Below are positions 21,218 through 42,845 of a DNA stretch of 45,673 nt, piece by piece. Source of the stretch: Methylotenera sp. (GTDB lineage: Bacteria > Pseudomonadota > Gammaproteobacteria > Burkholderiales > Methylophilaceae); assembly GCA_030655015.1 (NCBI GenBank), contig JAURWJ010000035.1, forward strand, positions 1-45,673. The letters are read 5' to 3'. The notes beneath the pieces are model-generated. The model was not told the origin of the DNA. It saw only the letters and a list, made by a program, of their open reading frames with translations, and did not search any database. Positions within the stretch are counted from its first letter, which is position 1. Every line of letters starts with the position of its first letter. Position numbers and translations under genes: made by a program.

Positions 21218-21446
21218 AGATCCGTGTTTTTTCAAGCAACCTCTCCTTATGATCCTCTGATCAAGTCTAGCTGGGCTATGTTGCAGTACACTTGAAAATT
21301 GGCTTTGCAAGCGATTGCAATGTCAGAATTTTTTGTTTATGGAGTAACCATTAGCCGTAAAATTTCTAATGAATGCACTCATCTCTGAAAGCATAGTGCC
21401 CCAACAATGAAAAAATTAACCAGAGGTTCTTCGATTATGTGAACCG

Positions 21447-23466: not shown

Positions 23467-23541
23467 ATGCAATGGATTGAACCAGATTTTTGTGATTTAC
23501 GTCTTGGCTTTGAAGTAACCGCCTACGTGTATGTGCGCTAG
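23467..23541 (+). CDS. pqqA: PqqA precursor peptide
   Basis: A 24-residue peptide too short for most gene callers. It carries the canonical PqqA core DLRLGFEVTAY: Glu16 and Tyr20, spaced E-x-x-x-Y, are the two residues PqqE crosslinks and from which the quinone is built. The ATG has a strong ribosome site (AGGAG at 23456-23460). The peptide differs from many PqqA sequences by Cys9 and a second tyrosine, Tyr22. It is followed by a hairpin and then pqqD and pqqE. Confidence 0.93.
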   Translation: MQWIEPDFCDLRLGFEVTAYVYVR

Positions 23542-23552
23542 GTAATACAGGT

Positions 23553-23569
23553 CGCGGCATTTTGCCGCG
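23553..23569 (+). ncRNA. hairpin between pqqA and pqqD
   Basis: CGCGGCA (23553-23559) and TGCCGCG (23563-23569) form a perfect 7-bp stem with loop TTT, 11 bases after the pqqA stop. No T tract follows, so it looks like a partial terminator or 3'-end stabiliser. Such an element would let the peptide mRNA exceed that of the enzyme genes, as reported for other pqqA genes. Confidence 0.55.
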
Positions 23570-23596
23570 TCCATAATTAAATTAAGGAAGTCTTTT

Positions 23597-23881
23597 ATGT
23601 CTGGAGATTTTCATTTTCAGCCCGAAGATCGCCCGCGACTAGATTCCAAGTATCTACTTCGTTGGGAGAAATCGCAGGATGCCTACGTGCTGCTATACCC
23701 TGAAGGCGTCATTAAGCTCAACGCTACCGCCGCAGAAATTCTCAAGCGCTGCACGGGCGAAGCTACTGTCGCCAACATCGCTACCGAACTTAAGGCGCTA
23801 TTTCTTGATAACGCCGATATAGAAAACAGTATTTACAATTTTTTGGAGGTAACCCATGGCAAAGGATGGATCCGCCGTTAG
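23597..23881 (+). CDS. pqqD: PqqD peptide chaperone
   Basis: PqqD binds PqqA and presents it to PqqE (RiPP recognition element). The 94-aa protein contains the usual landmarks: a basic RPRLDSKYLLRWE start, LLYPEGVIKLNATAAEILKRCTGEATV and a C-terminal winged-helix-like part ending NFLEVTHGKGWIRR. A ribosome site (AAGGAAG) precedes the ATG. It overlaps pqqE by 26 bases. In the standard gene order pqqB and pqqC come before pqqD; both are missing here. Confidence 0.92.
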   Translation: MSGDFHFQPEDRPRLDSKYLLRWEKSQDAYVLLYPEGVIKLNATAAEILKRCTGEATVANIATELKALFLDNADIENSIYNFLEVTHGKGWIRR

Positions 23882-25004
23882 TTTGGACGGACAAGGCAAG
23901 CCGATGTGGCTTGTACTTGAGCTCACCTATCGTTGCCCGCTCAAATGTGTCTGGTGTAACAACCCGCTGGATTTTGAACAGTATGGCAAGAAGGAATTAA
24001 GTACCGAGGAATGGAAACGAGTACTCCGTGAAGGACGTGAACTCGGCGCCCTGCAACTTGGATTCTCTGGCGGCGAACCCATGTTACGTGATGACATCGA
24101 AGAGTTAGTGGAAGAGGCAGAGCGCCTGGGCTATTACACCAACCTGATTACTTCCGGTGTGGGTCTCACGCCGGAGCGACTGAAAGCACTGAAACAGGCC
24201 GGCCTCAAACAGATTCAATTGAGCCTGCAATCTGCAAATCGTGACTTAACCGATGAACTGGTTGGAGCGAGGGCGCACGATCTGAAAGTTAACGTAGCGC
24301 GCATGATCAAAGCAGAAGGTTTTCCTATGGTGCTCAATGTGCCGGTATTTCGTCAGAACATTGACCAAGTGGATGAAATCCTGGCACTGGCTGAGGACAT
24401 CGGCGTAGATTATCTTGAACTCGCCAACATTCAGTATTACAACTGGGCGTTGCTCAACCGCGATGAACTGTTGCCGACACGCGAGCAGATCGAGCGCGCA
24501 GAGGCTGCCGTCGTCACTGCGCGAAATCGTCCAGGCCAGAAAATGACCATCTATTTCGTCATTCCGGATTATTATGAAACGCGTCCCAAGGCGTGTATGA
24601 ACGGCTGGGGCACAATACATCTCACCATTGCACCCGATGGTGCTGCTTTACCATGCCAAGAAGTCCGCGTAATTGAAGGTTTGGAATTCCCCACTGTGCG
24701 CGAGCATAGCTTGGATTGGCTTTGGAATGACTCACCGCTATTCAAGAAATTCCGTGGCGATGAGTGGATGAAAGAGCCTTGCCGTACCTGCGATGAGAAA
24801 GAAAAAGATTTCGGTGGTTGCCGTTGTCAGGCCTTTTTACTTACGGGTGATGCGGCAAATACCGACCCGGCATGCGCCAAATCTCCACATCATCATGTGA
24901 TAGAAATGGCTGTAAACAATGCTCGCAAGAAACATCACGAGCCTCGCCCTCTGGTCAGACGGCAGATCGGCGCAGTCACGACTATGTTTATGGTTCACAA
25001 ATGA
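23856..25004 (+). CDS. pqqE: PqqE radical SAM peptide cyclase
   Basis: Forms the C-C bond between Glu and Tyr of PqqA. The SAM cluster motif is C27-x3-C31-x2-C34 in LTYRCPLKCVWCNNPLDF, followed by GGEP. The C-terminal SPASM region keeps the auxiliary-cluster cysteines (KACMNGWG, LPCQEV, EPCRTCDE, GGCRCQAF, DPACAKSP). At 382 aa it is full length. The start is set by GGAGG before ATG 23856, inside pqqD. Everything needed for the first PQQ step is intact. Confidence 0.95.
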   Translation: MAKDGSAVSLDGQGKPMWLVLELTYRCPLKCVWCNNPLDFEQYGKKELSTEEWKRVLREGRELGALQLGFSGGEPMLRDDIEELVEEAERLGYYTNLITSGVGLTPERLKALKQAGLKQIQLSLQSANRDLTDELVGARAHDLKVNVARMIKAEGFPMVLNVPVFRQNIDQVDEILALAEDIGVDYLELANIQYYNWALLNRDELLPTREQIERAEAAVVTARNRPGQKMTIYFVIPDYYETRPKACMNGWGTIHLTIAPDGAALPCQEVRVIEGLEFPTVREHSLDWLWNDSPLFKKFRGDEWMKEPCRTCDEKEKDFGGCRCQAFLLTGDAANTDPACAKSPHHHVIEMAVNNARKKHHEPRPLVRRQIGAVTTMFMVHK

Positions 25005-25102
25005 AAACACCTTTCGACACTGCCACTGGCACTATCGTACTTGGTCTATTGCTAACGCTTGGATTATTTCTAACTGTCCGTTGGCTAGTGTTGGGAGGTT
25101 AA
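25001..25102 (+). CDS. 33-aa single-helix membrane peptide
   Basis: The ATG overlaps the pqqE stop (ATGA, 25001-25004), a typical coupled start. The peptide has a short polar N terminus and one membrane helix from about residue 11 to 30 (IVLGLLLTLGLFLTVRWLVL). The next gene begins 6 bases after its stop, with GGGAGG inside its last codons as ribosome site. I do not recognise a family. Its place in a coupled series suggests it partners the PuuD-like membrane protein that follows. Confidence 0.7.
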   Translation: MKTPFDTATGTIVLGLLLTLGLFLTVRWLVLGG

Positions 25103-25108
25103 TACACG

Positions 25109-25612
25109 ATGGATCAGATTATTGATTTTTCTCTGCGCTGGATACACATTTTTGGCGGCATTATCTGGGTGGGGCATAATTATGCCAGCGTGATTCAGCG
25201 TCCAAACTTCTGTCCACCTGGACGTGAGGATCTGGGTAACGAGCAAAGCCCAATTTATATGGCGCTGCTGGGGCGTGAACACGGCACCTTCCGATACGCA
25301 GCTATTGTCACTTGGTTGGCAGGTGTCGGCATGCTGTGGCAGCGTGGAGTGCTGGTTGATGCCATCACGCTAAGCGGCTATCTGGCCGTCATTGGCGTCG
25401 GCTTCTGGATAGGCACCTTGATGCTAGCCAATCTCTGGCTGGTATTGTGGCCAAACCAGAAAAAAGTGCTAGGCTTCGTTTATGCACCACTGGATGAGCG
25501 TGTGCGTTGTGCCCGCATCACATTCCTCTCCTCCCGCACCAATACCATGCTCTCCATTCCATTGCTGTTTTTCATGGCAGCCAGCCAGCATGGAGCGGCT
25601 CTGTTTGCCTGA
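25109..25612 (+). CDS. short PuuD-like (urate hydroxylase N-domain) membrane protein
   Basis: A 167-aa membrane protein with about four helices. It matches the membrane domain of PuuD-type urate hydroxylases: the start SLRWIHIFGGIIWVGHNY, GVGFWIGTLMLANLWLVLWPNQKK and the strongly conserved tail FLSSRTNTMLSIPLLFFMAASQHG. It is much shorter than PuuD and lacks the cytochrome c domain, so urate oxidation is unlikely. Histidines 13, 23 and 164 could bind haem or metal (inference). It lies in the PQQ-like operon and overlaps the next gene by 23 bases. Confidence 0.75.
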   Translation: MDQIIDFSLRWIHIFGGIIWVGHNYASVIQRPNFCPPGREDLGNEQSPIYMALLGREHGTFRYAAIVTWLAGVGMLWQRGVLVDAITLSGYLAVIGVGFWIGTLMLANLWLVLWPNQKKVLGFVYAPLDERVRCARITFLSSRTNTMLSIPLLFFMAASQHGAALFA

Positions 25613-26693
25613 GATTTTCAATTTTGCCGCTGGCCCGGCCGTTATGCCTGTCACCGTGCTGGCGCAAGCGCAGCGGGAACTCTTGAGCTGGAGCGGTAGC
25701 GGAATTTCGATGTTGGAAACGCCGTTTACCGGCGATGCTTTCAAGGCTGTGCTAAAGCAGACGCGCGATAATCTGCGATCACTGCTAAATATACCGGAAA
25801 ATTATCATATTTTATTTATGCATGGCGGCGCTTCGGCACAGTTCTCGCTGGTACCGCTCAACTTACTGGGTGCGGCAGATCGGGCTGATTATATTGAAAC
25901 CGGTTACTGGTCGCGTAAGACCATGCGCGAAGCTAGCCGCTACTGTAACGTCAATGTTGCAGCTAGTAGCAGTAACACCAGTTTCGACCGTATGCCCGAT
26001 ACGTGGCGTCTAGATCCCGGCGCAGCCTATTGCCATATCACCAGTAATGAGACCGCCAACGGCGTGCAATTCTACGACATTCCAGATACCAATGACTTAC
26101 CACTGGTGGCAGATATGACCTCAGACTTTCTCAGCAAACCTATTGATATACAGCGCTACGGTCTGATTTACGCTGGTGCGCAGAAGAATATCGGACCGGC
26201 AGGACTCACCATTGTCATCATACGCGATGACTTGCTTGGACGCGCTCATACAACAACGCCAGCAGTATTCAACTATCAGACTCAGGCTGAGGCAGGCTCT
26301 ATGCTCAACACACCACTCACCTTTGCCATCTATCTAACCGGACTGATATTCCACTGGATTGCCGGAATGGGTGGTGTCGAGGCAATGGCACGCAACAGCG
26401 AGCAGCGTAGCGCGCGGCTGTACCAAGCCATTGATGCTAGTGATGGTTTCTATCACTGTTCAATACAACCTGCATATCGATCACACATGAACGTTTGCTT
26501 CACGCTCGATAATAACGCACTTACGCCGTTTTTTCTGAACTCCGCAGCTAAGGAAGGCCTGATCAACCTAAAAGGGCACCCCATGGTCGGTGGCGTTCGT
26601 GCCAGCCTCTATAACGCTATGCCAGACACTGGCGTAACAGCACTTATCAATTTCATGCATCATTTCGTAGAAAAACATCACCACTATGTATAG
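25590..26693 (+). CDS. SerC-family PLP aminotransferase with altered substrate site
   Basis: A 367-aa fold-type I aminotransferase clearly related to phosphoserine aminotransferase: EIFNFAAGPAVMP, GYWSRKTMREA, and the PLP lysine K199 in IYAGAQKNIGPAGL. The substrate-binding residues of E. coli SerC are changed: His41-Arg42 are F46-T47, Arg77 is S82 (HGGASAQF), and Arg329 is P331 (KGHPMVGGVRAS); the partner His and last Arg remain. It therefore probably does not use phosphoserine. ATG 25590, inside the previous gene, gives the family start; upstream in-frame ATGs lie deep in that gene. Confidence 0.85.
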   Translation: MERLCLPEIFNFAAGPAVMPVTVLAQAQRELLSWSGSGISMLETPFTGDAFKAVLKQTRDNLRSLLNIPENYHILFMHGGASAQFSLVPLNLLGAADRADYIETGYWSRKTMREASRYCNVNVAASSSNTSFDRMPDTWRLDPGAAYCHITSNETANGVQFYDIPDTNDLPLVADMTSDFLSKPIDIQRYGLIYAGAQKNIGPAGLTIVIIRDDLLGRAHTTTPAVFNYQTQAEAGSMLNTPLTFAIYLTGLIFHWIAGMGGVEAMARNSEQRSARLYQAIDASDGFYHCSIQPAYRSHMNVCFTLDNNALTPFFLNSAAKEGLINLKGHPMVGGVRASLYNAMPDTGVTALINFMHHFVEKHHHYV

Positions 26694-27582
26694 ATGGCTA
26701 TCCTCAGCCGCATCCAAACTAGGGCTACAGCATGCCCGTACGCTATCTGCACATGCCATCAGGTTGGCCGCGATTGTCGCCCCGTCAGTGCCAGCGGCAG
26801 CCCTGCAGCGCAACGTGATGGGGCTAACATTCCCGGGGCCGATCGGGCTGGCGGCAGGTTTTGATAAACACGGCACACTCTTTCACGCTTTGCCACCGCT
26901 AGGACTTGGTTTTGCAGAGATTGGCTCAGTAATTCCACTGCCTGAAAAGCAACGTAGCCAAGGGCTCAATGTTGTGGTTTCCGTTCTATCCAAACATCTC
27001 AGGCCTCATGCGATACCGCTTGGTATCAGTATCAGTATGAACCGGATGACGCCGCCTGAACTAATGGCCAACGACTACCTGATTTGCATGGAAAAAGTAT
27101 GGGAATACGCTGACTACATCACACTAAATCTTGGTGTACGCGCTGGACCAGACCTACACCTGCCCGAACATCGCGCCACACTGTACACCGTGCTGGCAGC
27201 GTCCAAAGGTAAGCAGGTGCACATGAGGGCTAAAAGTGGACGGAATTGTCCTCTCGTTGTCAAAATAGATCAAGATCGTGGAGACACGAACAATCTGCTA
27301 GCTTGCGTGCGTGATTATGCTTTTGATGGATTGATTCTAAGTGGTGATGGGCATATCAATGAAGAAAAGATAATGCTTGCCAATTTGCAACGTGCGTCAA
27401 AAAAAATGAGTGGCAGTATGCCGATTATTTCAGTTGGCGGCATACGCACGCCACTGGGCGTTGCTGGTCGACTTGCTGCTGGCGCCTCACTAGTGCAGAT
27501 TTATAGCGGAATTGTCGAATCAGGTCCACTATTACCGCAGCGCATCAATACATACCTATCGAATTTAGCTGCCACTTGCTGA
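26686..27582 (+). CDS. class-2 dihydroorotate dehydrogenase-like FMN protein, active site altered
   Basis: A 298-aa barrel protein related to PyrD. FMN-binding parts are kept: GPIGLAAGFDKHG (K61), VVKID, and IISVGGI with AGASLVQIYSGIVESGP. DYLICMEKV is also shared with E. coli PyrD. The INRMGFNN orotate segment and about 20 residues after it are missing, and the NISSPNT loop is N148-LGVRAG, so the catalytic serine is V151. It is shorter than PyrD (336 aa in E. coli) and cannot be an ordinary dihydroorotate dehydrogenase. It overlaps the SerC-like gene by 8 bases. An FMN redox step in the same pathway is inference. Confidence 0.82.
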   Translation: MYRWLSSAASKLGLQHARTLSAHAIRLAAIVAPSVPAAALQRNVMGLTFPGPIGLAAGFDKHGTLFHALPPLGLGFAEIGSVIPLPEKQRSQGLNVVVSVLSKHLRPHAIPLGISISMNRMTPPELMANDYLICMEKVWEYADYITLNLGVRAGPDLHLPEHRATLYTVLAASKGKQVHMRAKSGRNCPLVVKIDQDRGDTNNLLACVRDYAFDGLILSGDGHINEEKIMLANLQRASKKMSGSMPIISVGGIRTPLGVAGRLAAGASLVQIYSGIVESGPLLPQRINTYLSNLAATC

Positions 27583-27642
27583 GATAAAAACTAGCTCAAA
27601 TCCACTTACGATCTTCTTTAAAAATTATTTAATTCTTGATAA

Positions 27643-27963
27643 ATGTCAATTTTTAGCGTTTTCATTACGAGTACTATCATGATCATGATTCAGCACATTG
27701 TTGCAATTACATTACTCGACTTTTTGATAGGCTACAAAAAAGTCAACCAGATTGGTAGTTTCGATGAGGCACGAGAAAGAGCCTCTCTGATCCTCGTTAC
27801 CGGCAATGCCCTGCTTTCACTTTTTGTTTTTACTCATTTCCTGTGGTTTTGCAATCTAACGATTAAACTTGCAATTAGTGCTTTACCACATATTTCTCAA
27901 GCGGATAGTATTGCAGAATTAAAGCATACACCGCTTCTTGTTAAAGCTCAGCGACAAGCTTAA
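27643..27963 (+). CDS. hypothetical membrane protein
   Basis: A 106-aa frame with two hydrophobic segments (about residues 3-29 and 52-80) separated by a charged loop (GYKKVNQIGSFDEARERA). I recognise no family. No clear ribosome site precedes the first ATG, and later in-frame ATGs at residues 12 and 14 are possible starts. It lies 60 bases after the PyrD-like gene and about 60 bases before a c-di-GMP gene, all in the same direction, so it may be the tail of one operon or the head of the other. Confidence 0.45.
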   Translation: MSIFSVFITSTIMIMIQHIVAITLLDFLIGYKKVNQIGSFDEARERASLILVTGNALLSLFVFTHFLWFCNLTIKLAISALPHISQADSIAELKHTPLLVKAQRQA

Positions 27964-31241: not shown

Positions 31242-32726
31242 TCAAAATCCCAATGTTTGCCAAATCTTATCAACTTTGGCTTTCACTTCGGCTGGCATCA
31301 CAATTGGTCGACCCCATTCGCGGCATGTTTCACCAGGCCATTTATTGGTCGCATCCATACCCATTTTGCTACCAAGACCGCTAACAGGCGACGCAAAATC
31401 GAGATAGTCAATCGGAGTGTTATCAACCAACAGTGTGTCACGTATCGGGTCTACGCGGGTGGTGATGGCCCAGATTACCTCCTGCCAGTTGCGGATATTG
31501 ACATCTTCATCCACAACCACAATAAATTTGGTATACATGAATTGACGTAGAAAACTCCAGATACCGAACATGACTCGCTTAGCATGACCGGGATAGGATT
31601 TTTTTATCTGCACCACCGCCATACGATAGCTGCAACCCTCAGGCGGCAAATAAAAATCTGTGATTTCCGGAAACTGTTTTTGCAGCAGTGGAACGAATAA
31701 TTCATTAAGGGCTAATCCCAAAACTGCAGGCTCATCTGGTGGTTTGCCAGTATAGGTGGAGTGGTAAATCGGATTGTGCCGCATCGTGATGCGATCAATA
31801 GTAAAAACCGGGAACCAGTCCTGTTCGTTGTAATAACCAGTGTGATCACCAAACGGACCCTCCAGCGCATGTTCATAGCCCGTAGCGTGCGATTCGTCTG
31901 GGTAGATATGCCCTTCAAGCACGATCTCAGCCGAAGCGGGAACACGCAAGTCGCTACCAATAGCCTTGACCAGTTCGGTACGGCTGCCACGTAATAGGCC
32001 AGCAAACTGATATTCCGACAAGCTATCGGGTACTGGTGTAACAGCCCCCAAAATAGTCGCGGGGTCAGCGCCCAAAGCGACTGCCACCGGATAGGGCTGA
32101 CCTCGATGAAGCTCGCCATGTTCACGAAAATCCAGTGCGCCGCCGCGCTGGGCCAACCAACGCATGATCACTTTATTACGCCCCAGCACTTGCTGGCGGT
32201 AGACGCCAAGATTCTGACGTTCCTTATGCGGCCCTTTTGTGATGACCAACCCCCAAGTGATTAGAGGTGCAATATCTCCTGGCCAGCAATGCTGAATTGG
32301 TAGTCTAGCCAAGTCAACATCATTGCCTTCCCACACGACATCCTGGCATGGTGCTGAACGCAACTCCTTGGGCGTCATGTTCCATAATGATTTCACCTTT
32401 GAGCGCAGGCCTAACATGTCCTTGAATCCATTGGGGGGCTCTGGGTCCTTCAGCATGGCCAACACATGGCCATAGTTACGTAGCTCGCTCACGTCCGTAG
32501 CACCCATACCTAGCGCGACGCGTCGTGGGGTACCAAAAAGATTGCCAAGCACAGGAATGCTGTGACCTACCGGGTTTTCAAACAATAGAGCCGGACCACC
32601 AGTACGCAGGGTACGGTCACACAGCTCCGTCATTTCTAAATGTGGAGAGACAGGTGACTTAATACGCTTTAGCTCACCTATCTGTTCCAGCTGAACGATG
32701 AAGTCCCGCAAATCGTGATAAGCCAA
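31242..32726 (-). CDS. ubiD: 4-hydroxy-3-polyprenylbenzoate decarboxylase UbiD
   Basis: Uses prenylated FMN to decarboxylate the ubiquinone precursor. The 494-aa protein starts [22 protein letters not shown] and matches the full UbiD length. [12 protein letters not shown] holds the acidic residues near the cofactor, and [16 protein letters not shown] is the usual N-terminal signature. It follows ubiX, which makes the cofactor, after one base. The pair forms the 3' end of an anaerobic ubiquinone gene run. Confidence 0.94.
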
Positions 32727-32727
32727 A

Positions 32728-33336
32728 TCAGTCTCCAGTCAAGTTGTTTTGCTTGGCTACGGCGAGCCCTTCCCAGCGGGGGGCCAGCTCATTTGGCACA
32801 CCCAGCAAATCGATAACGCGGCTGACAGTGTGGTCAATTATGTCGGCTATAGTTTGTGGCCGATGGTAAAAACAAGGCAACGGCGGGTAGATAATGCCGC
32901 CCATTTCGGTGACACTGGTCATATTGCGCAAATGGGCCAGATTAAACGGTGTTTCGCGCACCATTAAGATCAATCGGCGGCGTTCCTTGAGCATGACATC
33001 TGCAGCCCGCGTAATCAGGTTGTCTGATAGGCCATGCGCCACCGCAGCCAGCGTTCTCATTGAACACGGGGCCATGACCATGCCATCTGACTGGAACGAG
33101 CCACTGGCAATTGACCCGCCAACATCGTTCACATTATGAGTTACATCGGCCAGCTCCTCAAGCTGCATGCGGTTCATATTTAACTCCTGCTGTAGATTCA
33201 GTAACCCAGAGTCAGATATCACCAAATGGGTTTCTATATTTGGCATTTCACTCAGCACTTGTAGCAGGCGCACACCATAAGAGGCACCAGAGGCACCGGT
33301 AATCGCTACGATCAGTCGTTTATAGGTCACGGTCAT
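32728..33336 (-). CDS. ubiX: flavin prenyltransferase UbiX
   Basis: Attaches a dimethylallyl group to FMN to make the prenylated flavin required by UbiD. The 202-aa protein shows the Rossmann start [35 protein letters not shown] and [18 protein letters not shown], all hallmark segments, with [10 protein letters not shown] near the C terminus. It overlaps the upstream DGC gene by 4 bases (ATGA) and precedes ubiD by one base. Confidence 0.94.
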
Positions 33337-33731
33337 CGGGTGAGAACGGACCCTTCAATCTTGGCAAGTACAAGTGCCAAAACAGCTTGCGCCTGTTCGA
33401 GATCGAAGTCTGTGTGGTATATTTTTTTCACACTATACTGGTTGAGCTGGTGGTAGCTATCCGGCTCAACGCCATGGCGTGCCAGACAAGCCTTAGTACA
33501 GGCAAGTGAACAACCGTCGAGTGCAATAATAGGGCGACCAGAACGTGCAATTTTCACCAAGTGAAGCACGTCTCCACCTACACCTGCTATGCAGGACATT
33601 TCTGCCACACCCAGCTTATCGAGCTGCAGCGCAATGTAATTTGCCATTTGTGCCACGCTCGAACAGCCAGAGCAGGAATATACGATGGGGAAATTTACAT
33701 CTCTTTTGCGCAATGAGTCTGATCCTTTCAT
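33333..33731 (-). CDS. DGC-domain putative zinc-binding protein
   Basis: A 132-aa cysteine-rich protein. C20-x2-C23 (YSCSGCSSVAQ) near the N terminus and the DGC signature D72-G-C74-x3-C78-x3-C82 (LDGCSLACTKACL) identify the family, whose members are described as putative zinc- or metal-binding proteins of unknown role. It is translationally coupled to ubiX. A role in iron-sulfur or metal supply to the UbiU/UbiV clusters is only a guess from position. A mobile-element-like repeat separates it from ubiT. Confidence 0.8.
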   Translation of the reverse strand: MKGSDSLRKRDVNFPIVYSCSGCSSVAQMANYIALQLDKLGVAEMSCIAGVGGDVLHLVKIARSGRPIIALDGCSLACTKACLARHGVEPDSYHQLNQYSVKKIYHTDFDLEQAQAVLALVLAKIEGSVLTR

Positions 33732-33754
33732 TTAACCTAAAAACGGCTTTTCAT

Positions 33755-33961
33755 CCACGAAAAACACCAAAAACACGAAATGGGGTAAGCAGGCATTTCG
33801 CTTTATTAAGTGAAAGCTCGCAAATAAATCAAATGCATCATTCAATTTTCAATTTAACCTATTGGGTGTCATCGTAAATCCGTGTAATCAATTGAATTTT
33901 TTCGTGTATTTTGTGTTTTTCGTGTATTTTGTGTTTTTCGTGTATTTTGTGTTTTTCGTGG
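33755..33961. mobile_element. 207-bp MITE-like element with 26-bp imperfect terminal inverted repeats
   Basis: The left end (33755-33780, beginning CCACGAAAAACAC) and the right end (33936-33961, ending GTGTTTTTCGTGG) are inverted copies: the outer 13 bases match exactly and 24 of 26 match overall. No gene lies inside and I see no target duplication. It sits within an otherwise compact operon between ubiT and the DGC gene. It may be a MITE or an intergenic repeat family able to fold into a large stem. Confidence 0.55.
33901..33961 (+). repeat. 18-bp tandem repeat, three copies plus a partial fourth
   Basis: TTCGTGTATTTTGTGTTT is repeated exactly three times (33901-33954), then a partial copy ends TTCGTGG. 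The array forms the right end of the element at 33755-33961. Because 18 is a multiple of three it yields a false open frame with a YFVFFV repeat. There are no unique spacers, so it is not CRISPR. Confidence 0.9.
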
Positions 33962-34006
33962 ACCAACTGCTTTTTATAGGTTCAATAGTCAAGTTCGCAA
34001 TCGCTA

Positions 34007-34477
34007 TCATACCCACAGTCTTGCTTTCATTCTTGTCAACGGATTTCTAGAGAATATGCGCTCGAGCTTAAGCAAGGGATGCTCGATGGCATCCAGCGTG
34101 TTCTTAGCTACCAATCCCAGTTCGGTATCGCCTTCCACTACCAGTCGTCGATTGAAAAACAGTGTGTCAGGATCTTCCTTGCGCATCGCCAGAAGATAAA
34201 AATCATAGGCGGTAGCACTAATGGTAAGGTCTGGTAACACATTGCCAGTAGCGGCCGAAAATCCGGATGACTGCACGGTGAAGTAAAAATTCAACCCAAC
34301 ATCGTTAACATGTATGGCAATCCGCTTACCATACAGCGCTTGCAGGTCACCGCGATGGATAACTTGACGCAGTACCAGATCAAGAATACAGGTAAGGGTA
34401 AATGATGACGGCCATGTTGGCAGATGTTCAATTAATCGACCTAGCTGACGTGGAAAAATATACGTGCTTTGACTCAT
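34007..34477 (-). CDS. ubiT: UbiT, SCP2-domain lipid carrier for anaerobic ubiquinone synthesis
   Basis: UbiT binds isoprenoid intermediates and is needed for O2-independent ubiquinone synthesis. The 156-aa protein has the SCP2 fold marks: DLQALYGKRIAIHVNDVGLNFYFTV, PDLTISATAYDFYLLAMRKEDPDTLFFNRRLVVEGDTELGL and a C-terminal helix. It overlaps ubiV by 4 bases, giving the order ubiU-ubiV-ubiT seen in denitrifiers. Annotation as a generic sterol carrier protein would miss this context. Confidence 0.88.
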   Translation of the reverse strand: MSQSTYIFPRQLGRLIEHLPTWPSSFTLTCILDLVLRQVIHRGDLQALYGKRIAIHVNDVGLNFYFTVQSSGFSAATGNVLPDLTISATAYDFYLLAMRKEDPDTLFFNRRLVVEGDTELGLVAKNTLDAIEHPLLKLERIFSRNPLTRMKARLWV

Positions 34478-35370
34478 GTCAGCACCTCCATTGATTGTTC
34501 AATACCAGATCGTCCATGCCAATAACCATCACATGGCGCATCAAACAGGAGTGGTGCAAGCGCGGCCTTCGCTTCGCTGCTACTAACCATACGGTCAATC
34601 GCAGCCCTAAATGCTGCAATCACTTCACCAGTGTGCTCAGGCTGCGGGCTGATACGTACAACGTCCACGCCAAGTTGTCGCATGTCGTCAATCTCACCAA
34701 TCAAATTGTGAATGCTGGCAGATTGGGTCTGCGTTCCATTTAAGGCAAGAAAAGATTGACCCTCACGCGTTTTTAACGTCATGCCGCAAGGATGCTCCAG
34801 ACACTTAAAGTGACAATCGTCCTTAGGCAGATTGTGGCGCCGCGCAGTAAAGCAACGTGAAGAAAGAGCAAGTGGCAAGCGGCCGTAAGCAAACACTTCG
34901 GTTTCCATGCCTTGAGGTTTTTTAACCAAAAGTTCTGTCAGCATATTACGCGATAATTCTACTGGCATCACCCAACGGCTCGCGCCCTGTTCTGCCAGTA
35001 TTTCAAGCGTTTCGCCATTGTAGGTATTAATATGCGTTCCCACGACGAATGGCTTGCCTGCAGATAGTCGTACAGCACCCATGTCATTGGCTTCGATGCT
35101 GAATCGGCCATTTCTAGCAATCCGACGCAACACCTTGAGGTCAGATTCAGATTCAAGCAGTGCTTGTGTAGACAACACTACTTCTTTGCCAGCTTCCGCC
35201 AACCTGCCAGCAACAGTCAACCAATCCTCCAGGCGCATCTCATGGCGACGCGAACATACCACCTCACCTAAATAGACAATATCTACCGGCCAGTTGGCAA
35301 CTTGCTCGTAAAAATCCTGCACCGTTTTACGAGTCCAGTAATAAAGAATAGGGCCCAGAGAGATTTTCAT
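34474..35370 (-). CDS. ubiV: UbiV, O2-independent ubiquinone hydroxylase subunit (U32 family)
   Basis: UbiU-UbiV hydroxylate the quinone ring without O2. The 298-aa protein begins MKISLGPILYYW; C39 (VVCSRRHEM) and the cluster SSRCFTARRH...DDCHFKCLEHPC supply the 4Fe-4S ligands. A longer frame starting at 35403 would run back over the ubiU stop; ATG 35370 lies 4 bases after that stop with GGAAGT as ribosome site, so I chose it. U32 proteins are often misnamed peptidases. Confidence 0.93.
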   Translation of the reverse strand: MKISLGPILYYWTRKTVQDFYEQVANWPVDIVYLGEVVCSRRHEMRLEDWLTVAGRLAEAGKEVVLSTQALLESESDLKVLRRIARNGRFSIEANDMGAVRLSAGKPFVVGTHINTYNGETLEILAEQGASRWVMPVELSRNMLTELLVKKPQGMETEVFAYGRLPLALSSRCFTARRHNLPKDDCHFKCLEHPCGMTLKTREGQSFLALNGTQTQSASIHNLIGEIDDMRQLGVDVVRISPQPEHTGEVIAAFRAAIDRMVSSSEAKAALAPLLFDAPCDGYWHGRSGIEQSMEVLT

Positions 35371-35374
35371 AATA

Positions 35375-36376
35375 TTACTTCCATGGACGGTAATAGGCGC
35401 CAAGCGTATGCTGTTGCCCTTCAGAAAGTTTACCTAACTGCGCCATCCAGTCGGGTGTGGCTGCATAATGCGCGGCATCTAGTTTGGCTGCATCGATGGC
35501 TGCTCGCCATACACGCGTTACTTGTTCAACATAGACTGGGCTGCGCTGGCGGCCTTCAATCTTGATGGCTCTAATTCCCATGCGTAACATGTCTGGAATC
35601 AGTTCCAGCGTATTGAGGCTGGTTGGCTCCTCCAACGCGTAATACGTTTCATCTTCCACTTCGAAACGACCTTTGCACAAAGTAGGATAGCCTGCATTCT
35701 CATCGGCACTATATCGATCTAGCAACACACCACTCAGGCGTGATTCCAGCCCCTTGGGTGTCTGCTGCCAGCGCACGGCCTTTGCTGGAGAGCACACGCC
35801 TGCGGTATTAGGTGATTCACCAGTAACATAGGAAGACAATATGCAACGCCCCTCCACCATCACGCATAATCCGCCGAAGCCGAACAACTCGATTTCAACC
35901 GACGTGTTTTTAACGACGTTCTCAACCTGTGCCAGCGACAGCACACGCGGCAGTACAGCGCGCTGAATGCCAAAATGTTCCTGATAGAAATTGATTGCCT
36001 CGTAATTGGTGGCTGAGCCTTGCACTGAGAGATGCAAACGCAAATCAGGATATGTACGGCTAGCATAGCGCATTAGGCCCAGATCAGCCAAAATTAGCGC
36101 ATCGACCCCTAGTTCTGCCGCATCATCTACCGCCTGCTTCCACACATGCCATTGCGCAGTTTGTGGAAAGGTATTGAGTGCCAGTAATATTTTGCGTCCG
36201 TGCTCATGAGCGTAGCGAATGCCTTGTTTGGCAGTTTCATTATCGAAATTCAAGCCGGCAAAGGCTCGTGCATTAGTGCTGTTGCGAAAACCCATATATA
36301 CGCAGTCGGCTCCGTTATCCACAGCGACCTTAAGCGCTGGCAGGTTCCCTGCTGGGCAAACCAGTTCAAGCGACAT
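35375..36376 (-). CDS. ubiU: UbiU, O2-independent ubiquinone hydroxylase subunit (U32 family)
   Basis: Partner of UbiV in anaerobic ring hydroxylation; prephenate was identified as oxygen donor in E. coli. The 333-aa protein starts MSLELVCPAGNLPALKVAVD, the U32 signature, and has the cluster-binding cysteines in GLCVMVEGRCILSSY, NTAGVCSPA and TLCKGRFEV. It overlaps the upstream radical SAM gene by 11 bases and precedes ubiV by 4. All four expected cluster cysteines are present. Confidence 0.94.
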   Translation of the reverse strand: MSLELVCPAGNLPALKVAVDNGADCVYMGFRNSTNARAFAGLNFDNETAKQGIRYAHEHGRKILLALNTFPQTAQWHVWKQAVDDAAELGVDALILADLGLMRYASRTYPDLRLHLSVQGSATNYEAINFYQEHFGIQRAVLPRVLSLAQVENVVKNTSVEIELFGFGGLCVMVEGRCILSSYVTGESPNTAGVCSPAKAVRWQQTPKGLESRLSGVLLDRYSADENAGYPTLCKGRFEVEDETYYALEEPTSLNTLELIPDMLRMGIRAIKIEGRQRSPVYVEQVTRVWRAAIDAAKLDAAHYAATPDWMAQLGKLSEGQQHTLGAYYRPWK

Positions 36377-37727: not shown

Positions 37728-38735
37728 TTAACCACCAGTGTGAGACATAAAACGTATGACTGCAGGTGTAGCACGATTTAAATCAAAATCGTGACCTTTG
37801 GGTTTAGTTTGCAGGCTATTGATAATCGCTTGCTTAAGCGGTCTGTCATCGTGAGGGAACTCTCTTAACAACGGTCTCAAATCCACTTTATTTTCTTGGC
37901 CTAAACAAAGATACAGCTCGCCTTTACAGCTAATGCGTACACGATTGCACGCTTCACAAAAATTATGGCTGTTTGGCGAGATAAAGCCTATTTTTGTTGT
38001 GCTGTTCGGAATGCGCCAATAGCGTGCTGGACCGCCCGTAGTCTCTGCGCTTCTAACTAAATCGTAGCGGGCTCTCAGCAGTTTTAATGTTTCTTCATTG
38101 CTTACATAGCTTGCGCTACGGGAATGTTGCACTTCGCCTAGCGGCATTTCTTCAATAAATGAGATGTCCAAACCGTGCTCTACCGCAAACGCGGCTAAAG
38201 GCAGTGCTTCATCATCATTGATGCCTCGCATGAGTAGGGCATTGAGCTTAATATTTTCAAAACCTGCTTGCTTGGCAACGGCAATGCCACGTAGCACTTT
38301 ATCTAACTCGCCCACGCGTGTGATTTTACGAAAACGCACTGCATCCAGGCTATCAAGGCTAATGTTAATACGGCGTACACCTGCTTGTTTTAAGGCGAAT
38401 GCTTGATGTGCTAATTGTGAGCCATTGGTTGTTAAAACCAGTTCGCGCAAACCCTGCAACTGCCCGATTTCTTCAAATAACTGGAGCGCATTTTTACGCA
38501 CCAGTGGCTCTCCACCTGTAATGCGAACTTTGCTTACACCTAACGAGACAAAGACTTTTACTAAACGCGCACATTCTTCTAGCGACAATACTTCATCTCG
38601 CGGCAGAAAAGTCATGTTTTCCGACATACAGTAGACACAGCGAAAATCGCATCTATCCGTAATTGACAGGCGAATATAATCCACCTTGCGGCCAAAGCTA
38701 TCAATTAACACAGATGGATAGGTGCGGAGATTCAT
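37728..38735 (-). CDS. moaA: GTP 3',8-cyclase MoaA
   Basis: First enzyme of molybdenum cofactor synthesis. The N-terminal SAM cluster is C29-x3-C33-x2-C36 (TDRCDFRCVYC). The C-terminal cluster that binds GTP is in FCEACNRVRISCKGELYLC, and the protein ends in GG, which MoaA needs for activity. At 335 aa it is full length. It lies 26 bases after the porin gene at the end of the nar operon, so cofactor synthesis is coupled to the molybdoenzyme NarG. Confidence 0.95.
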   Translation of the reverse strand: MNLRTYPSVLIDSFGRKVDYIRLSITDRCDFRCVYCMSENMTFLPRDEVLSLEECARLVKVFVSLGVSKVRITGGEPLVRKNALQLFEEIGQLQGLRELVLTTNGSQLAHQAFALKQAGVRRINISLDSLDAVRFRKITRVGELDKVLRGIAVAKQAGFENIKLNALLMRGINDDEALPLAAFAVEHGLDISFIEEMPLGEVQHSRSASYVSNEETLKLLRARYDLVRSAETTGGPARYWRIPNSTTKIGFISPNSHNFCEACNRVRISCKGELYLCLGQENKVDLRPLLREFPHDDRPLKQAIINSLQTKPKGHDFDLNRATPAVIRFMSHTGG

Positions 38736-38761
38736 TTTGTCAGTTAAAACTACTCAACCAG

Positions 38762-40024
38762 TTAAAAGGCATAAATCGCAGTTAGCCAGAATTTCTCGAT
38801 GTCACGTTTACGAGTGCCGGCGTATTCATCGTCTTCTTTAAAATTGGCATACTCAACTGAAGCAGAAATTTGTTTGGTAAATTTATAGTAAACACCCAAA
38901 TCAAATTCTTTGCCGTATTTGTCGCCCGTACCGCCGCCTACTTTCGCAAAGTTACGGTCCGAATTAATGAAGTGATACTCCGCCTTAATCGTGGCATCCA
39001 TGACTTTGCCACCAGCAATCAATATCGTATCTTCTATGCCTTCGTTAGGTGTGACGAGAAATACATCTGCCCAACCTTGAAACAAGTGATTGGTACCGAG
39101 TGGCGTTTGGAAGGCTTTGCCATTAGAGTTACCTGACAACTTTTCTTGGTCAACGCGTAAGAACCAATCACCATACCCGGCACCCGCACCAACTCGGTAA
39201 TAATCGTTATCAATCAACTTGCTACCGTCTTTATAGTCGTCCTGTTTGGCATACTCTGCTGTATATAAAACTTTCCAGCTATCATTCAGTTTTTGGCTAC
39301 CATCTAGACGCAAACCTAAGGTTTTGTTGGATGAGGCTTCCAGTGCCTTGCCATTCCAATCCACAAAATAGCCATAGCCAACTAAACTGGTGCTAGGCGT
39401 AATATTGTATTTAACATTGGCAATATCGATGTTGGCATCTTGGATTTTAGTGGTGATTTGCTTCACTTGTTCATAGTGTGCCAATGCAATCTCGGTATTA
39501 GGCAGGCTTTTATTCACAAACGAAAGTCCATTAAATACCTGCCAGTTTTGACGAAAGCGCACATCACCCACATAGCGCCAGTTATCAAGCACCATGCCTT
39601 GACGCCCTAACTTAATAGAGGAGTCAGGAATGCCTGTCCACTCCAGATATAGTTGATGAAAATCGTAATCTTCAGGGTCAGCAATCACGGGATACTTTGT
39701 TCTGCTAGCTAGTGGGCTGCCTTTTTTTAGATCGTTATAATCATCATTTAACGGGCTTAAGCCATACACTTCAGCAGTGATGCTAACGTCATGGAATGGC
39801 TTGGTTTTCCAGCCAATTAGACTGCGCAATGTGAACGCTTCGCCAGTTTCAGATTTTCCATCCTGATTGACATTTTCATAACGCAACTTAAAGTTAATCG
39901 TTGGCTTTCCTTCTATGATCGCTTCTTTTAACGAACCCGCTTGCGCAACATCCTCCGCTAGCCCTGGTAATGCCCACATCGTTAACAAGGCGGAAAATAC
40001 AGAAATACTTAATCGATGGTTCAT
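38762..40024 (-). CDS. outer-membrane beta-barrel porin (alginate-export-like)
   Basis: A roughly 420-aa exported protein: signal peptide (about residues 1-24, cleaving near LPGLA-ED), then a long series of alternating strands and a C-terminal phenylalanine (LTAIYAF), the outer-membrane insertion signal. The fold resembles the alginate-export/porin group; the ligand need not be alginate. It sits inside the nar operon after narI, so nitrate or nitrite passage is a reasonable inference. AGGAG places the start at ATG 40024; ATG 40030, two codons earlier, is the alternative. Confidence 0.8.
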   Translation of the reverse strand: MNHRLSISVFSALLTMWALPGLAEDVAQAGSLKEAIIEGKPTINFKLRYENVNQDGKSETGEAFTLRSLIGWKTKPFHDVSITAEVYGLSPLNDDYNDLKKGSPLASRTKYPVIADPEDYDFHQLYLEWTGIPDSSIKLGRQGMVLDNWRYVGDVRFRQNWQVFNGLSFVNKSLPNTEIALAHYEQVKQITTKIQDANIDIANVKYNITPSTSLVGYGYFVDWNGKALEASSNKTLGLRLDGSQKLNDSWKVLYTAEYAKQDDYKDGSKLIDNDYYRVGAGAGYGDWFLRVDQEKLSGNSNGKAFQTPLGTNHLFQGWADVFLVTPNEGIEDTILIAGGKVMDATIKAEYHFINSDRNFAKVGGGTGDKYGKEFDLGVYYKFTKQISASVEYANFKEDDEYAGTRKRDIEKFWLTAIYAF

Positions 40025-40033
40025 TGTCATCTC

Positions 40034-40732
40034 CTAGCTTTTTAAGAACTTACGTTTGCTACGCACCACTTGATAAGGGCGATTAGCGTAGCCAAACGGC
40101 GCACTCCACACATGTACTAAGCGGGTGAATGGGAACAGCAAAAACACCGTCATACCAAAAAATAAATGTATTTTAAAAATCGTGTCCACGCCGTTAAGTA
40201 AAGCTGGGTTTGGGTGCAAATAAACAATACTTTGTACCCATTCGGCTAGCGCAATCATCACACTAGGGTTGCCGTGGTTAGCATGCCCAATAGAGACAGG
40301 AATAGTTGACAGCCCAAGCATGAGTGTGATGAGTAACCAAGTAAGAATAAACTTGTCAGAGCCGCGACTGACGGCAGATACTCGCGCATTAAACATACGA
40401 CGCACCCATAGAATCACCCCGCCAATCAAGCACATAACACCAAAAATAGACCCAGCCCAAATCGCAACCATTTGGTGTGTCATGTCGGATACGCCAAGCC
40501 CTGTAAACACGCTGTGTGGCGTTAATAAACCAACAGCATGCCCGCCAAAAATGGCAATAATGCCAACATGAAATAGATTGCTACCTAGCCGCATATTCGC
40601 CTTGGATAACAACTGGCTGGAATCGCTTTTCCATGTGTATTGCTCGCGATCAAAGCGTAACAGGCTGCCTAGCAAAAACACACTAAGCGCAATGTAGGGA
40701 TACACGCCGTAAAGAAAGTTGTGTAAATTCAT
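40034..40732 (-). CDS. narI: respiratory nitrate reductase gamma subunit NarI
   Basis: Membrane cytochrome b that takes electrons from quinol and passes them to NarH. The 232-aa protein has five hydrophobic helices; the haem-ligand histidines are in FHVGIIAIFGGHAVGL and in the late segment KIHLFFGMTVFLLFPFTRLVHVW. Length and pattern match NarI. It follows narJ by 25 bases and precedes the porin gene by 9. Confidence 0.94.
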   Translation of the reverse strand: MNLHNFLYGVYPYIALSVFLLGSLLRFDREQYTWKSDSSQLLSKANMRLGSNLFHVGIIAIFGGHAVGLLTPHSVFTGLGVSDMTHQMVAIWAGSIFGVMCLIGGVILWVRRMFNARVSAVSRGSDKFILTWLLITLMLGLSTIPVSIGHANHGNPSVMIALAEWVQSIVYLHPNPALLNGVDTIFKIHLFFGMTVFLLFPFTRLVHVWSAPFGYANRPYQVVRSKRKFLKS

Positions 40733-40757
40733 TTTCGTTCTCCTTAATGTCTTTAGC

Positions 40758-41276
40758 TTAAGCCGCTAATTTAGTTAGCGTCGCTCTGCTCTCAATAATT
40801 GAGAGTAGAGCAGCATAAGGGCTGCCTGCTTTTTGCAGGTTCTCTGTCAGTACACCCAGCACTTTTTTAGCGTCCGATAAAAACACGGTCGCCTCGTTAT
40901 CATCCAAATAAGCTGTAAATTCCAGAATGAGCGGCAAATAGTCAGGTAACTCATTGGTGACCACCTCTATGCCATAATCCTTGTACAACTCACCCAAATC
41001 AATCAAAGCTGGCCCACGATTTTTATCATCACCAAATAGGTGATGCGTCAGGTGCAGGCTGTGTTCTGCTGTCATATCAAAAGTTTGTACATATTCCGCT
41101 TGCAACTCGGTGACTGACATACTCTGCAAATGGGTTAGAAAGTTCTGCAAAGCCTCGCGTTCGGCATGATCTATTTCCAAGTTTTGCACGACAAACTCGC
41201 GCAACTCAGGCAGATGCTCAATCAAGTCCTGATTAGGATAATCAAGTAAGGCTGATAATAATTTGTAGATTTGCAT
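40758..41276 (-). CDS. narJ: nitrate reductase assembly chaperone NarJ
   Basis: NarJ binds apo-NarG and times insertion of the molybdenum cofactor and the assembly with NarI. The 172-aa protein has the TorD-like signature: YKLLSALLDYPNQDLIEHLPEL at the start and LTHHLFGDDKNRGPALIDLGELYKDYGIEV in the middle. It is shorter at the C terminus than the E. coli protein, which is common in betaproteobacteria. It lies between narH and narI as in all narGHJI operons. Confidence 0.92.
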   Translation of the reverse strand: MQIYKLLSALLDYPNQDLIEHLPELREFVVQNLEIDHAEREALQNFLTHLQSMSVTELQAEYVQTFDMTAEHSLHLTHHLFGDDKNRGPALIDLGELYKDYGIEVVTNELPDYLPLILEFTAYLDDNEATVFLSDAKKVLGVLTENLQKAGSPYAALLSIIESRATLTKLAA

Positions 41277-41286
41277 AATGCTGTCC

Positions 41287-42825
41287 TTAACTATTGGGTG
41301 CTTCTTCTTTAGGTTCTACCGTATCTTTACGACGGCGCGGGAATAGCGTGATTTTAGAAACGCCGTGTGAAGTATCATTACCAAACGTAAAGCCATTTTG
41401 ACCTTGGAAGCCAAATGAATCGTCCAAAGTTTCTTCGGTATGTCCAGTCGGAATCACAAAACGGTCTTCATAATTGGCAATTGCCAGATAGCGGTACATT
41501 TCTTTCGCTTGATCTTCAGTAATGCCAGCTGCATCAATTGCACGCGTATCAACTTTGCCTTCAACGTGAATCGAACGTTGGTAGCTACGCATAGCAATTA
41601 GCTTATTTAAAGCGCTTTCAATCGGCGCCTCTTTGCCTGCGGTGAGTAAATTGGCAAGGTACTGTATTGGTAAGCGCATCGCACCAGCCACCGGAATTGC
41701 GCCATCAGGTCCTACGGGTAAATTCCCTTGGTCAATTTGTGATTGCACAGGTGAGAGCGGTGGTACATACCACACCATCGGCAACGTACGAAATTCTGGA
41801 TGAATTGGGAAGGCAATTTTCCAGTCCATCACCATTTTCCAGATTGGTGATTTACGCGCGGCATCAAGCCAATCTTCGTTAATACCTTCAGCACGTGCAG
41901 CTTTAATCACTTCGGGGTCATTCGGATCCAAGAAAATACTACGCTGTGCCTCGTACAAATCTTGCGTATCTTCCATACTCGCCAGTTCTTCGATGCGGTC
42001 TGCGTCGTACAACATAATGCCGTTGTAACGAATACGTCCAACGCATGATTCTGAACATACCGTCGGCATGCCAGACTCTACGCGTGGATAACAGCCGATA
42101 CACTTCTCAGCTTTACCAGATTCCCAGTTATAAAATACTTTTTTGTACGGGCATGAGCTGATGCACATACGCCAGCCACGGCATTTGTCTTGGTCAACCA
42201 ACACAATGCCGTCTTCTTCGCGTTTATAAATCGAGCCAGACGGACAGGCGGCTACACAAGCTGCGTTCAAGCAGTGATTACAAATGCGCGGCAAATACAT
42301 ATGGAAAGTATTCTCAAATTGGCCATACATCTCCTTCTGGATGTTATCCATATTTTTGTCTTTACTGCGTTTATGATACTCGCCCGCTAAATCATCTTCC
42401 CAGTTTGGCCCCCAAGTGATCTTTTCCATACTTTCGCCTGTGATTTGCGATATGGGTCGAGCAGTAGGCGTGGCCTCTGACAATGGTGCGTTTTTCAGAT
42501 GTGCGTAATTGTAAGTAAACGGCTCATAATAATCGTCGATTTCAGGCATATCCGGGTTGGCGAAGATATTAAGCAATTTGTTGGTGCGGCTACCAGATTT
42601 TAATTCCAGCTTGCCGTTTTTAAGCTCCCAGCCACCGTTCCAAATATCCTGATTTTCCCATTGTTTTGGGTACCCTACGCCAGGCTTTGATTCCACGTTG
42701 TTAAACCAGGCGTATTCCACGCCTTTTCTGTTGGTCCACACGTTTTTACAGGTGACCGAGCAGGTGTGACAGCCGATGCATTTATCTAAGTTAAAGACAA
42801 AGGCGAATTGTGCGCGTACTTTCAT
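41287..42825 (-). CDS. narH: respiratory nitrate reductase beta subunit NarH
   Basis: Iron-sulfur electron-transfer subunit of NarGHI. The 512-aa protein starts MKVRAQFAFVFNLDKCIGCHTCSVTCKNVW. Further cluster motifs are CNHCLNAACVAACPSGSIYK, CRGWRMCISSCPYKKVF (the tryptophan marks the 3Fe-4S site of NarH) and EKCIGCYPRVESGMPTVCSESC. It begins 20 bases after narG. The C-terminal tail (RRKDTVEPKEEAPNS) is charged and unremarkable. Confidence 0.96.
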   Translation of the reverse strand: MKVRAQFAFVFNLDKCIGCHTCSVTCKNVWTNRKGVEYAWFNNVESKPGVGYPKQWENQDIWNGGWELKNGKLELKSGSRTNKLLNIFANPDMPEIDDYYEPFTYNYAHLKNAPLSEATPTARPISQITGESMEKITWGPNWEDDLAGEYHKRSKDKNMDNIQKEMYGQFENTFHMYLPRICNHCLNAACVAACPSGSIYKREEDGIVLVDQDKCRGWRMCISSCPYKKVFYNWESGKAEKCIGCYPRVESGMPTVCSESCVGRIRYNGIMLYDADRIEELASMEDTQDLYEAQRSIFLDPNDPEVIKAARAEGINEDWLDAARKSPIWKMVMDWKIAFPIHPEFRTLPMVWYVPPLSPVQSQIDQGNLPVGPDGAIPVAGAMRLPIQYLANLLTAGKEAPIESALNKLIAMRSYQRSIHVEGKVDTRAIDAAGITEDQAKEMYRYLAIANYEDRFVIPTGHTEETLDDSFGFQGQNGFTFGNDTSHGVSKITLFPRRRKDTVEPKEEAPNS

Positions 42826-42845
42826 GATGTTCTCCTAGTGTCCTT

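Follow-up and report, generated by a model that had tools for sequence, protein, structure and literature searches.

The last steps of the known pathway to pyrroloquinoline quinone (PQQ) need O2. In keeping with this limit, a 2024 study of N2O respirers that oxidise methanol suggests that, for work in complete anoxia, PQQ methanol dehydrogenases depend on PQQ that was carried over or supplied (PMC11102522), and the relevant part of a study of Rhodopseudomonas palustris ascribes activity in anaerobic conditions to PQQ made earlier microaerobically (PMC10531626). The closest described system is a pqqADE–puuD–serC–pyrD cluster, the subject of one section of a 2025 paper, which places it in Hyphomicrobium (Hden_0548-0553 in Hyphomicrobium denitrificans), Halomonas, Stutzerimonas, Methylophaga and Azoarcus, all capable of denitrification (PMC12423496). 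According to the same section, Klebsiella and Pseudomonas aeruginosa have the canonical genes only and make no anaerobic PQQ, and O2-independent PQQ synthesis by the cluster is termed speculation (PMC12423496). Within the open-licence PMC literature, we recognised no further paper as describing O2-independent PQQ synthesis. Here we describe a related seven-gene operon on a 45,673-nucleotide contig of Methylotenera sp. (JAURWJ010000035.1; the whole stretch is hereafter the window), in which pqqA, pqqD and pqqE run into genes for a 33-aa membrane peptide and for PuuD-, SerC- and PyrD-like proteins, the latter group being referred to below as the module. We consider it probable that this operon encodes an O2-independent, nitrate-respiration-linked route to PQQ.

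A second pqq operon with coupled downstream genes

The window is one entire contig (C154) of a metagenome-assembled genome (MAG; G000) that is 85% complete with 5.6% contamination and whose nearest named relatives are Methylotenera MAGs. An earlier note on this DNA had placed seven genes at 23467-27582 and had claimed that from pqqD onward they overlap or lie 6 bases apart. Family models, open reading frames (ORFs) and gene coordinates bear out both statements (Table 1): the overlaps are 26 bases (pqqD/pqqE), 4 bases (pqqE/peptide), 23 bases (PuuD/SerC) and 8 bases (SerC/PyrD), and the 6-base spacing separates the membrane peptide gene from the PuuD-like gene. PqqE has the CX3CX2C motif and the SPASM cysteines, and the PqqA core reads FEVTAY, compared with FE[IV]TMY in 34 of the 35 canonical PqqAs compared. 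The 33-aa peptide has no family match in Pfam or NCBIfam, and the PyrD-like protein falls under the cut-off of all the dihydroorotate dehydrogenase (DHODH) models listed.

A search of the window contig for pqqB and pqqC gave no match, in agreement with the earlier note; PqqB and PqqC are thus outside the operon, and their matches in this genome sit on C141, with an extra PqqC on C134. Contig C141 carries a complete canonical pqqABCDE, including the second pqqA that the note had proposed to look for, near a canonical serC, as supported by PqqC, PqqE and PqqB searches. The operon in the window is therefore a second copy and not a broken first copy. The second PqqC of this MAG (323 bits; C134:31235-31897) is to be read with the contamination of the assembly in mind. 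Separately, a third PqqD match on contig C44 (5197-8050, L115) stands among other genes; this PqqD-like protein is followed by ATP-grasp- and decarboxylase-type proteins, as judged by eye, and perhaps belongs to an unrelated modified-peptide cluster.

Conservation and distribution of the module

Among the best 80 of 116 relatives retrieved with the window PqqE, a PuuD-like gene lies downstream of this pqqE type in 77 loci, with SerC as well in 75, and PuuD, SerC and PyrD all stand in order in 64. The gene order that the earlier note had proposed to seek in other genomes is thus conserved. Of the 13 incomplete loci, six have less than 3.5 kb after pqqE, and in some others a more distant PyrD appears once the cut-off is relaxed; the three loci that lack the module, with no PuuD after pqqE, are L103, L110 and L113. 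Median intergenic gaps are 4 bases between PuuD and SerC and -4 bases between SerC and PyrD. A small hydrophobic ORF lies between pqqE and PuuD in 73 of the 77 loci, which argues that the 33-aa membrane peptide is very likely the product of a real, conserved gene.

The hosts include Methylotenera, Methylobacillus, Novimethylophilus, Thauera, Azoarcus, Methyloversatilis, Hydrogenophaga, Dechloromonas, Denitromonas, Paraburkholderia, Sedimenticola, Methylophaga and Marinobacterium, and the gene order is common to beta- and gammaproteobacterial loci and to two alphaproteobacterial plasmids. Two layouts recur. In the first (window and Thauera types), pqqA-pqqD-pqqE runs into the module and neither pqqB nor pqqC is nearby; in the second (Dechloromonas and Sedimenticola types), pqqE and the module lie near pqqABCD or in one cluster with it. 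The fetched DNA of 15 module loci contains pqqB, in some cases in such a combined cluster. Of 399 genomes sampled evenly and without bias from the order (Burkholderiales), six, including the window's own, encode a module-type PuuD (more than 270 bits; the next scores are 156). Another short DUF989 protein (107-156 bits) occurs in 100 of the 399 genomes, in each case without the module-type one.

The plasmids that carry pqqADE-puuD-serC-pyrD are pHY1 of Methylovirgula and a 45.8-kb plasmid of Acidibrevibacterium that is typed mobilizable. In the latter, the gene at the PyrD position is annotated as hypothetical and its product has 41% identity to the 'dihydroorotate oxidase' of pHY1. On neither plasmid do the displayed stretches around the module contain pqqB or pqqC.

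Several genes near these loci are observed in their own right. An alpha/beta hydrolase (prolyl aminopeptidase by eye; cluster c6) lies near the module or pqqB/pqqC in 18 of the 80 loci and is a possible PqqA peptidase. A candidate PqqA protease is encoded on the Acidibrevibacterium plasmid, where a gene for an M48 metalloprotease (L226:10411-11589) starts 5 bases after the PyrD-position gene. On pHY1 (L227:40839-42418), cbpA-cbpB, whose annotation names a modified peptide precursor with its radical S-adenosylmethionine (SAM) enzyme, adjoins a Crp/Fnr gene and the pqq module.

Changed active sites of the recruited enzymes

The three recruited proteins were compared with their canonical counterparts. 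When 76 module SerCs were aligned with 25 canonical SerCs from module genomes, the lysine that holds pyridoxal 5′-phosphate (PLP), the aspartate and the tryptophan were each kept in 76/76 and the carboxylate arginine in 73 (three gaps). By contrast with canonical SerC, in which His41 and Arg42 are both present in 25/25, Ser40-His41-Arg42 is replaced in the module by Pro (74/76), Phe (75/76) and Thr or Ser (69/76). His41 and Arg42 are the residues that handle the phospho-substrate. As judged from this alignment, the module copies keep the cofactor residues and have lost the phosphoserine residues. In a tree of 34 module and 25 canonical rows, the two groups are split by one branch (support 100/98), and each of the 26 genomes tested has two SerC-type genes.

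A similar pattern was seen for PyrD, for which 64 module and 20 canonical copies were aligned. The flavin-site glycines are kept in the module copies, as are Asn148 and Lys193 (64/64 each); the catalytic serine is found in only 3 of the 64, most of the NRxGFNN loop is gone in at least 62, and the NTT and GGLSG motifs are lost. The serine, the loop and both motifs are present in 20/20 canonical copies, and the roles of the catalytic serine and of the orotate-binding asparagines are known for class 2 DHODH. Many module members also lack the N-terminal region. The alignment thus indicates that cofactor residues are kept and dihydroorotate residues lost. A class 2 PyrD over the cut-off is found in 20 of the 26 genomes; in the rest, DHODH-like matches are weaker or the module copy stands alone, as it does in G000. 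MftD of mycofactocin, considered as a possible analogue, belongs to the FMN_dh family, and the PyrD-like protein matches that family (PF01070) with 12 bits, under the cut-off of 24.9.

In the PuuD-like protein, four histidines are invariant in 78 rows (His13, His23, His58 and His161, with 0, 0, 1 and 2 gaps), and so are Arg56, Glu57, Arg62, Asn108 and Trp110 save for one gap. An AlphaFold2 model (predicted local distance difference test (pLDDT) 87) has four long helices, and the 167-aa sequence contains neither CXXCH nor a cytochrome c domain. A possible likeness to HemJ was dropped as unsupported, with no solved relative at E < 0.001.

FNR-type boxes and the nitrate-respiration neighbourhood

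The palindrome TTGAYN4RTCAA is the FNR/DNR-type consensus. Within 350 bases upstream of pqqA, it occurs in 30 of the 46 module loci that have a recognisable pqqA and at least 250 bases upstream, compared with 0 of 35 canonical loci (p 1e-10, with the related genomes not being independent). The canonical loci came from the genome of the window and from further module-carrying genomes; of the 39 examined, four were dropped, three because no pqqA could be recognised and one because it had no pqqB. Dinucleotide shuffles contained the palindrome in 14 of 4600 cases. Its presence also follows the number of PqqEs: 25 of 36 genomes with two PqqEs have it, compared with none of four with a single PqqE (p 0.015). 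In L034, L035 and L111, which are closely related to the window, 9/10 box positions match at -238; a 9/10 match at -284 in the window has no counterpart in them. On the plasmids, the Acidibrevibacterium copy has a perfect box at -108 and the pHY1 copy adjoins the Crp/Fnr-family gene. A further palindrome, TTGATAAATGTCAA, lies just 3′ of the PyrD-like gene (27636-27649 of the window), followed by a 106-aa ORF and a long ORF that appears by eye to encode a GGDEF/EAL protein.

The same contig carries a ubi-type gene group and narGHJI (Table 1). In that group, we take the SCP2 protein to be UbiT-like and the U32 proteins to be UbiV/UbiU-like, these assignments and the UbiX-type name following known ubiUVT operons. 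Among 37 genomes of the genus Methylotenera, five have the module pqqE (at least 93% identity), and NarG is over the cut-off in 5/5 of these compared with 8/32 of the others (p 0.003, the five being close relatives). On a wider scale, NarG exceeds the cut-off in 28 of 48 module genomes, which were not drawn from a single order, compared with 125 of the 393 module-free genomes of the order Burkholderiales (p 6e-4). On pHY1, about 16 kb separate the module from narGHJI.

Close upstream of the operon are pdxT (Pfam SNO) and pdxS (SOR_SNZ), at 20585-22367 on the reverse strand. PdxS is found in only 4 of 52 Methylotenera-genus genomes, and in one of them (G112) it lies within about 30 kb of narG. 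PdxST makes PLP without the O2-using pyridoxine phosphate (PNP) oxidase. The island in the window may gather genes for O2-free cofactor synthesis.

Table 1. Features of the window, with positions counted from its first base
Feature	Position	Strand	Description and evidence
Degenerate FNR-type site TTGACCTAACGCAA	23230..23243		alignment with close relatives; 7/10 consensus positions by hand count
pqqA	23467..23541	+	24-aa precursor peptide ending FEVTAYVYVR; Pfam PF08042 (PqqA) 38.7 bits, TIGR02107
pqqD	23597..23881	+	PqqA-binding chaperone; TIGR03859 88 bits, cut-off 46
pqqE	23856..25004	+	radical SAM/SPASM cross-linking enzyme; TIGR02109 505 bits, cut-off 381
Membrane peptide gene	25001..25102	+	33 aa, single-helix
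PuuD-like (DUF989) gene	25109..25612	+	167 aa, four-helix membrane protein; partial PF06181 match, 50 bits
SerC-like gene	25590..26693	+	TIGR01364 460 bits, cut-off 443.6
PyrD-like gene	26686..27582	+	family models and alignment of 64 module and 20 canonical copies
UbiD, UbiX-type flavoprotein, DGC protein, SCP2 protein, two U32 proteins	31242..36376	-	Pfam
moaA, Opr-type porin, narI, narJ, narH, narG	37728..45593	-	narG cut by contig end

Co-occurrence with PqqB, PqqC and PqqE

We searched 55 genomes, 53 with the module and two (G109 and G110) without, and found PqqC matches in 54 (53 over the cut-off) and PqqB matches in 53 (51 over the cut-off). In most of the genomes examined, the PqqE of the operon is a second copy beside an aerobic pqqABCDE. 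Nine genomes of the second layout (G086, G089, G092, G094, G095, G096, G103, G105 and G106), however, have a single PqqE (E < 1e-60), which is module-borne, together with PqqC. Where it lies in the fetched DNA, the PqqA of the single-PqqE genomes is of the FEVTAY type; this type stands beside pqqB/pqqC where both were fetched (for example, L070, L076 and L085), and L103 and L110 combine it with pqqB and pqqC at loci that have no module. The nine genomes with a sole, module-borne PqqE and PqqC argue that the product of the module PqqA-PqqE pair is most likely a PQQ precursor and not a new cofactor.

One genome has a different composition. In G081 (L058), a Rhodocyclales groundwater MAG with contigs of several hundred kilobases, neither PqqB nor PqqC was found; it has one PqqE, the module and, about 7.5 kb away, a PQQ-dependent methanol/ethanol dehydrogenase (TIGR03075, 756 bits). 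G084 gave no PqqB match either but was dropped as evidence: the DNA fetched from it is interrupted by runs of N, and neither its canonical PqqC nor its canonical PqqE is full-length.

A proposed route and its rivals

We favour an O2-independent PQQ route because of the conserved order, the FNR-type boxes, the nar/ubi neighbourhood, the rewired active sites and the one MAG without detected PqqB or PqqC. In such a route, PqqE and PqqD would cross-link Glu and Tyr of their own PqqA, by analogy with the family's known part in PQQ synthesis, a host peptidase would free the cross-linked di-amino acid, and the three recruited enzymes would take over the PqqB and PqqC steps. The PuuD-like protein and its small membrane partner may oxidise and hydrate the ring and pass electrons to the respiratory chain, as suggested for PuuD and urate. 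The PyrD-like flavoenzyme would dehydrogenate the N-CH(COOH)-CH2 part of the new six-membered ring, a grouping also found in dihydroorotate. Least certain, the SerC-like PLP enzyme might act on the side chain of the amino acid that gives rise to the pyrrole.

These assignments draw on the chemistry of the families. AHQQ, the PqqC substrate, is described in the part concerned as a hexahydroquinoline-7,9-dicarboxylic acid (PMC12423496); it therefore holds the N-CH(COOH)-CH2 that DHODH oxidises in dihydroorotate, and a DHODH descendant with a loop-less orotate pocket would suit aromatisation of the AHQQ ring. For PuuD, electron transfer from urate through cytochrome c was suggested from the lack of an extra catalase, in the passage on this point (PMC4562309), so a PuuD relative would suit an oxidation linked to nitrate respiration. 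Likewise, a SerC without the phosphate site and with the carboxylate arginine would suit an amino acid that bears no phosphate, for example the cross-linked Glu-Tyr. More tentatively, and as something that we would not expect to hold in full, the module could be horizontally mobile and replace PqqB and PqqC completely, without O2. The short PuuD and a micro-membrane subunit would then form a heme-type membrane oxidase that takes oxygen from water to hydroxylate the cross-linked tyrosine, the DHODH descendant would aromatise the pyridine ring and the PLP enzyme would close the pyrrole, giving PQQ in strict anoxia even without the aerobic enzymes.

A number of observations weigh against an O2-independent route. 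PqqC is matched in 52 of the 53 module genomes (in 51 above the cut-off) and PqqB in 51 (in 49 above the cut-off), and it is possible, given this near-universal co-presence, that the module depends on PqqB/PqqC. G081 is a candidate for a module-only genome and, being a MAG, not proof. The palindrome is missing in 16 of the 46 module pqqA genes, including all four single-PqqE genomes tested, although this last absence would be expected if only a dedicated copy can be anaerobic. A separate scan with another pqqA rule covered 76 loci (48 headed by pqqA and 28 by pqqE), and at the 28 pqqE-headed loci no site reaches 9/10 positions. In the window itself, the site shared with its close relatives is degenerate, and for the pHY1 copy we found neither a small membrane ORF nor, within 400 bases, a box. 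In the unbiased 399-genome sample, NarG occurs in three of the five other module genomes (p 0.33, not significant). As to the enzymes, the SerC-like protein of the window scores above the curated SerC cut-off (Table 1), comparison of the PuuD-like model with solved structures gave no relative at E < 0.001, and the putative heme binding of this protein is suggested by its histidines alone.

Three other explanations have to be set beside the O2-independent route. The operon could turn PqqA into a redox cofactor other than PQQ, or into a modified form of PQQ; a new cofactor was the other outcome that the earlier note had offered, and we now think this unlikely. The distinct FEVTAY type of the module PqqA, the PLP and FMN (flavin mononucleotide) enzymes, which are foreign to known PQQ synthesis, and the PqqB and PqqC of nearly all module genomes would all agree with such a product. 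It is disfavoured by the nine genomes in which the module PqqE is the sole PqqE and PqqC is present, by FEVTAY-type PqqAs beside pqqB/pqqC, even at two loci that lack the module, and by G081, where the module accompanies a PQQ dehydrogenase and no PqqB or PqqC was found. Alternatively, the three paralogues could be accessories that speed, repair or salvage aerobic PQQ synthesis and still need PqqB/PqqC. We regard this as quite improbable: the near-universal PqqC, the 15 module loci with pqqB, some in combined clusters, and the absence of the box from the four single-PqqE genomes tested speak for it, but the box on 30/46 module operons with pqqA compared with 0/35 canonical ones, the two plasmids whose displayed stretches show the module without pqqB/pqqC, and G081 do not fit a role of that kind.

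The earlier note had held that a complete pqqABCDE elsewhere, together with no conservation of the order in other genomes, would point to a spare pqqADE that had been joined by chance to unrelated genes. The complete canonical set is indeed present and would be compatible with a chance join, but the order recurs in loci of beta- and gammaproteobacteria as well as on the two plasmids from alphaproteobacteria, and the SerC paralogues fall on one side of a single well-supported branch from the canonical copies. Both parts were needed together and the order is conserved, so the refutation is not reached; the conserved order rules out a chance join, to which we assign practically no weight. The O2-independent route that the earlier note had proposed therefore stands as the best explanation of gene order, boxes, nar/ubi neighbourhood, active sites and G081, and has against it that nearly all module genomes also have PqqC.

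If correct, such a route would lift the limit on PQQ in anoxia and explain the use of PQQ enzymes by denitrifying methylotrophs, and it would add three new enzyme functions from recruited families. The set comprises seven genes and is also plasmid-borne, which makes the question directly testable.

Comparison with known systems

The window operon shares with the published cluster the gene set pqqA, pqqD, pqqE and puuD-, serC- and pyrD-like genes, and is likewise a second copy beside a classical pqqABCDE, as far as the section on that cluster describes it (PMC12423496). The hosts in that section are denitrifiers (PMC12423496); for the host of the window, what was observed on this point is narGHJI on the same contig. 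Methylotenera and most of the genera found here do not appear in the section (PMC12423496), and we add to it the 33-aa gene, the conservation of the box, the residue losses, the single-PqqE genomes, the MAG without PqqB/PqqC and the plasmid copies. Compared with canonical pqqABCDE, the operon shares PqqA, PqqD and PqqE but lacks PqqB and PqqC, has a PqqA of the FEVTAY type and carries an FNR-type box in most relatives.

The recruited proteins differ from their namesakes in a consistent way. The module PuuD-like protein shares the core of the DUF989 fold with PuuD, the cytochrome c urate oxidase, and the part of that study on the family mentions DUF989 proteins that are shorter, with four helices (I, II, V and VI), and stand in another genetic context (PMC4562309). 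PuuD has eight helices and a C-terminal cytochrome c with CXXCH, whereas the module protein is limited to its four long helices and has no such motif. The module SerC shares with phosphoserine aminotransferase the PLP fold, the lysine, the carboxylate arginine and a curated-family score, but has Phe-Thr/Ser in place of the phospho-substrate His-Arg, and a canonical SerC is also present in the genome. The module PyrD shares with class 2 dihydroorotate dehydrogenase the FMN-site motifs, Asn148 and Lys193, but is without the catalytic serine, the substrate-binding loop, NTT and GGLSG. Finally, ubiUVT provides O2-independent ubiquinone hydroxylation and is carried beside the aerobic enzymes. Both systems would be O2-independent replacements, as proposed here for the module, and such genes lie on the same contig, although the chemistry and the proteins differ.

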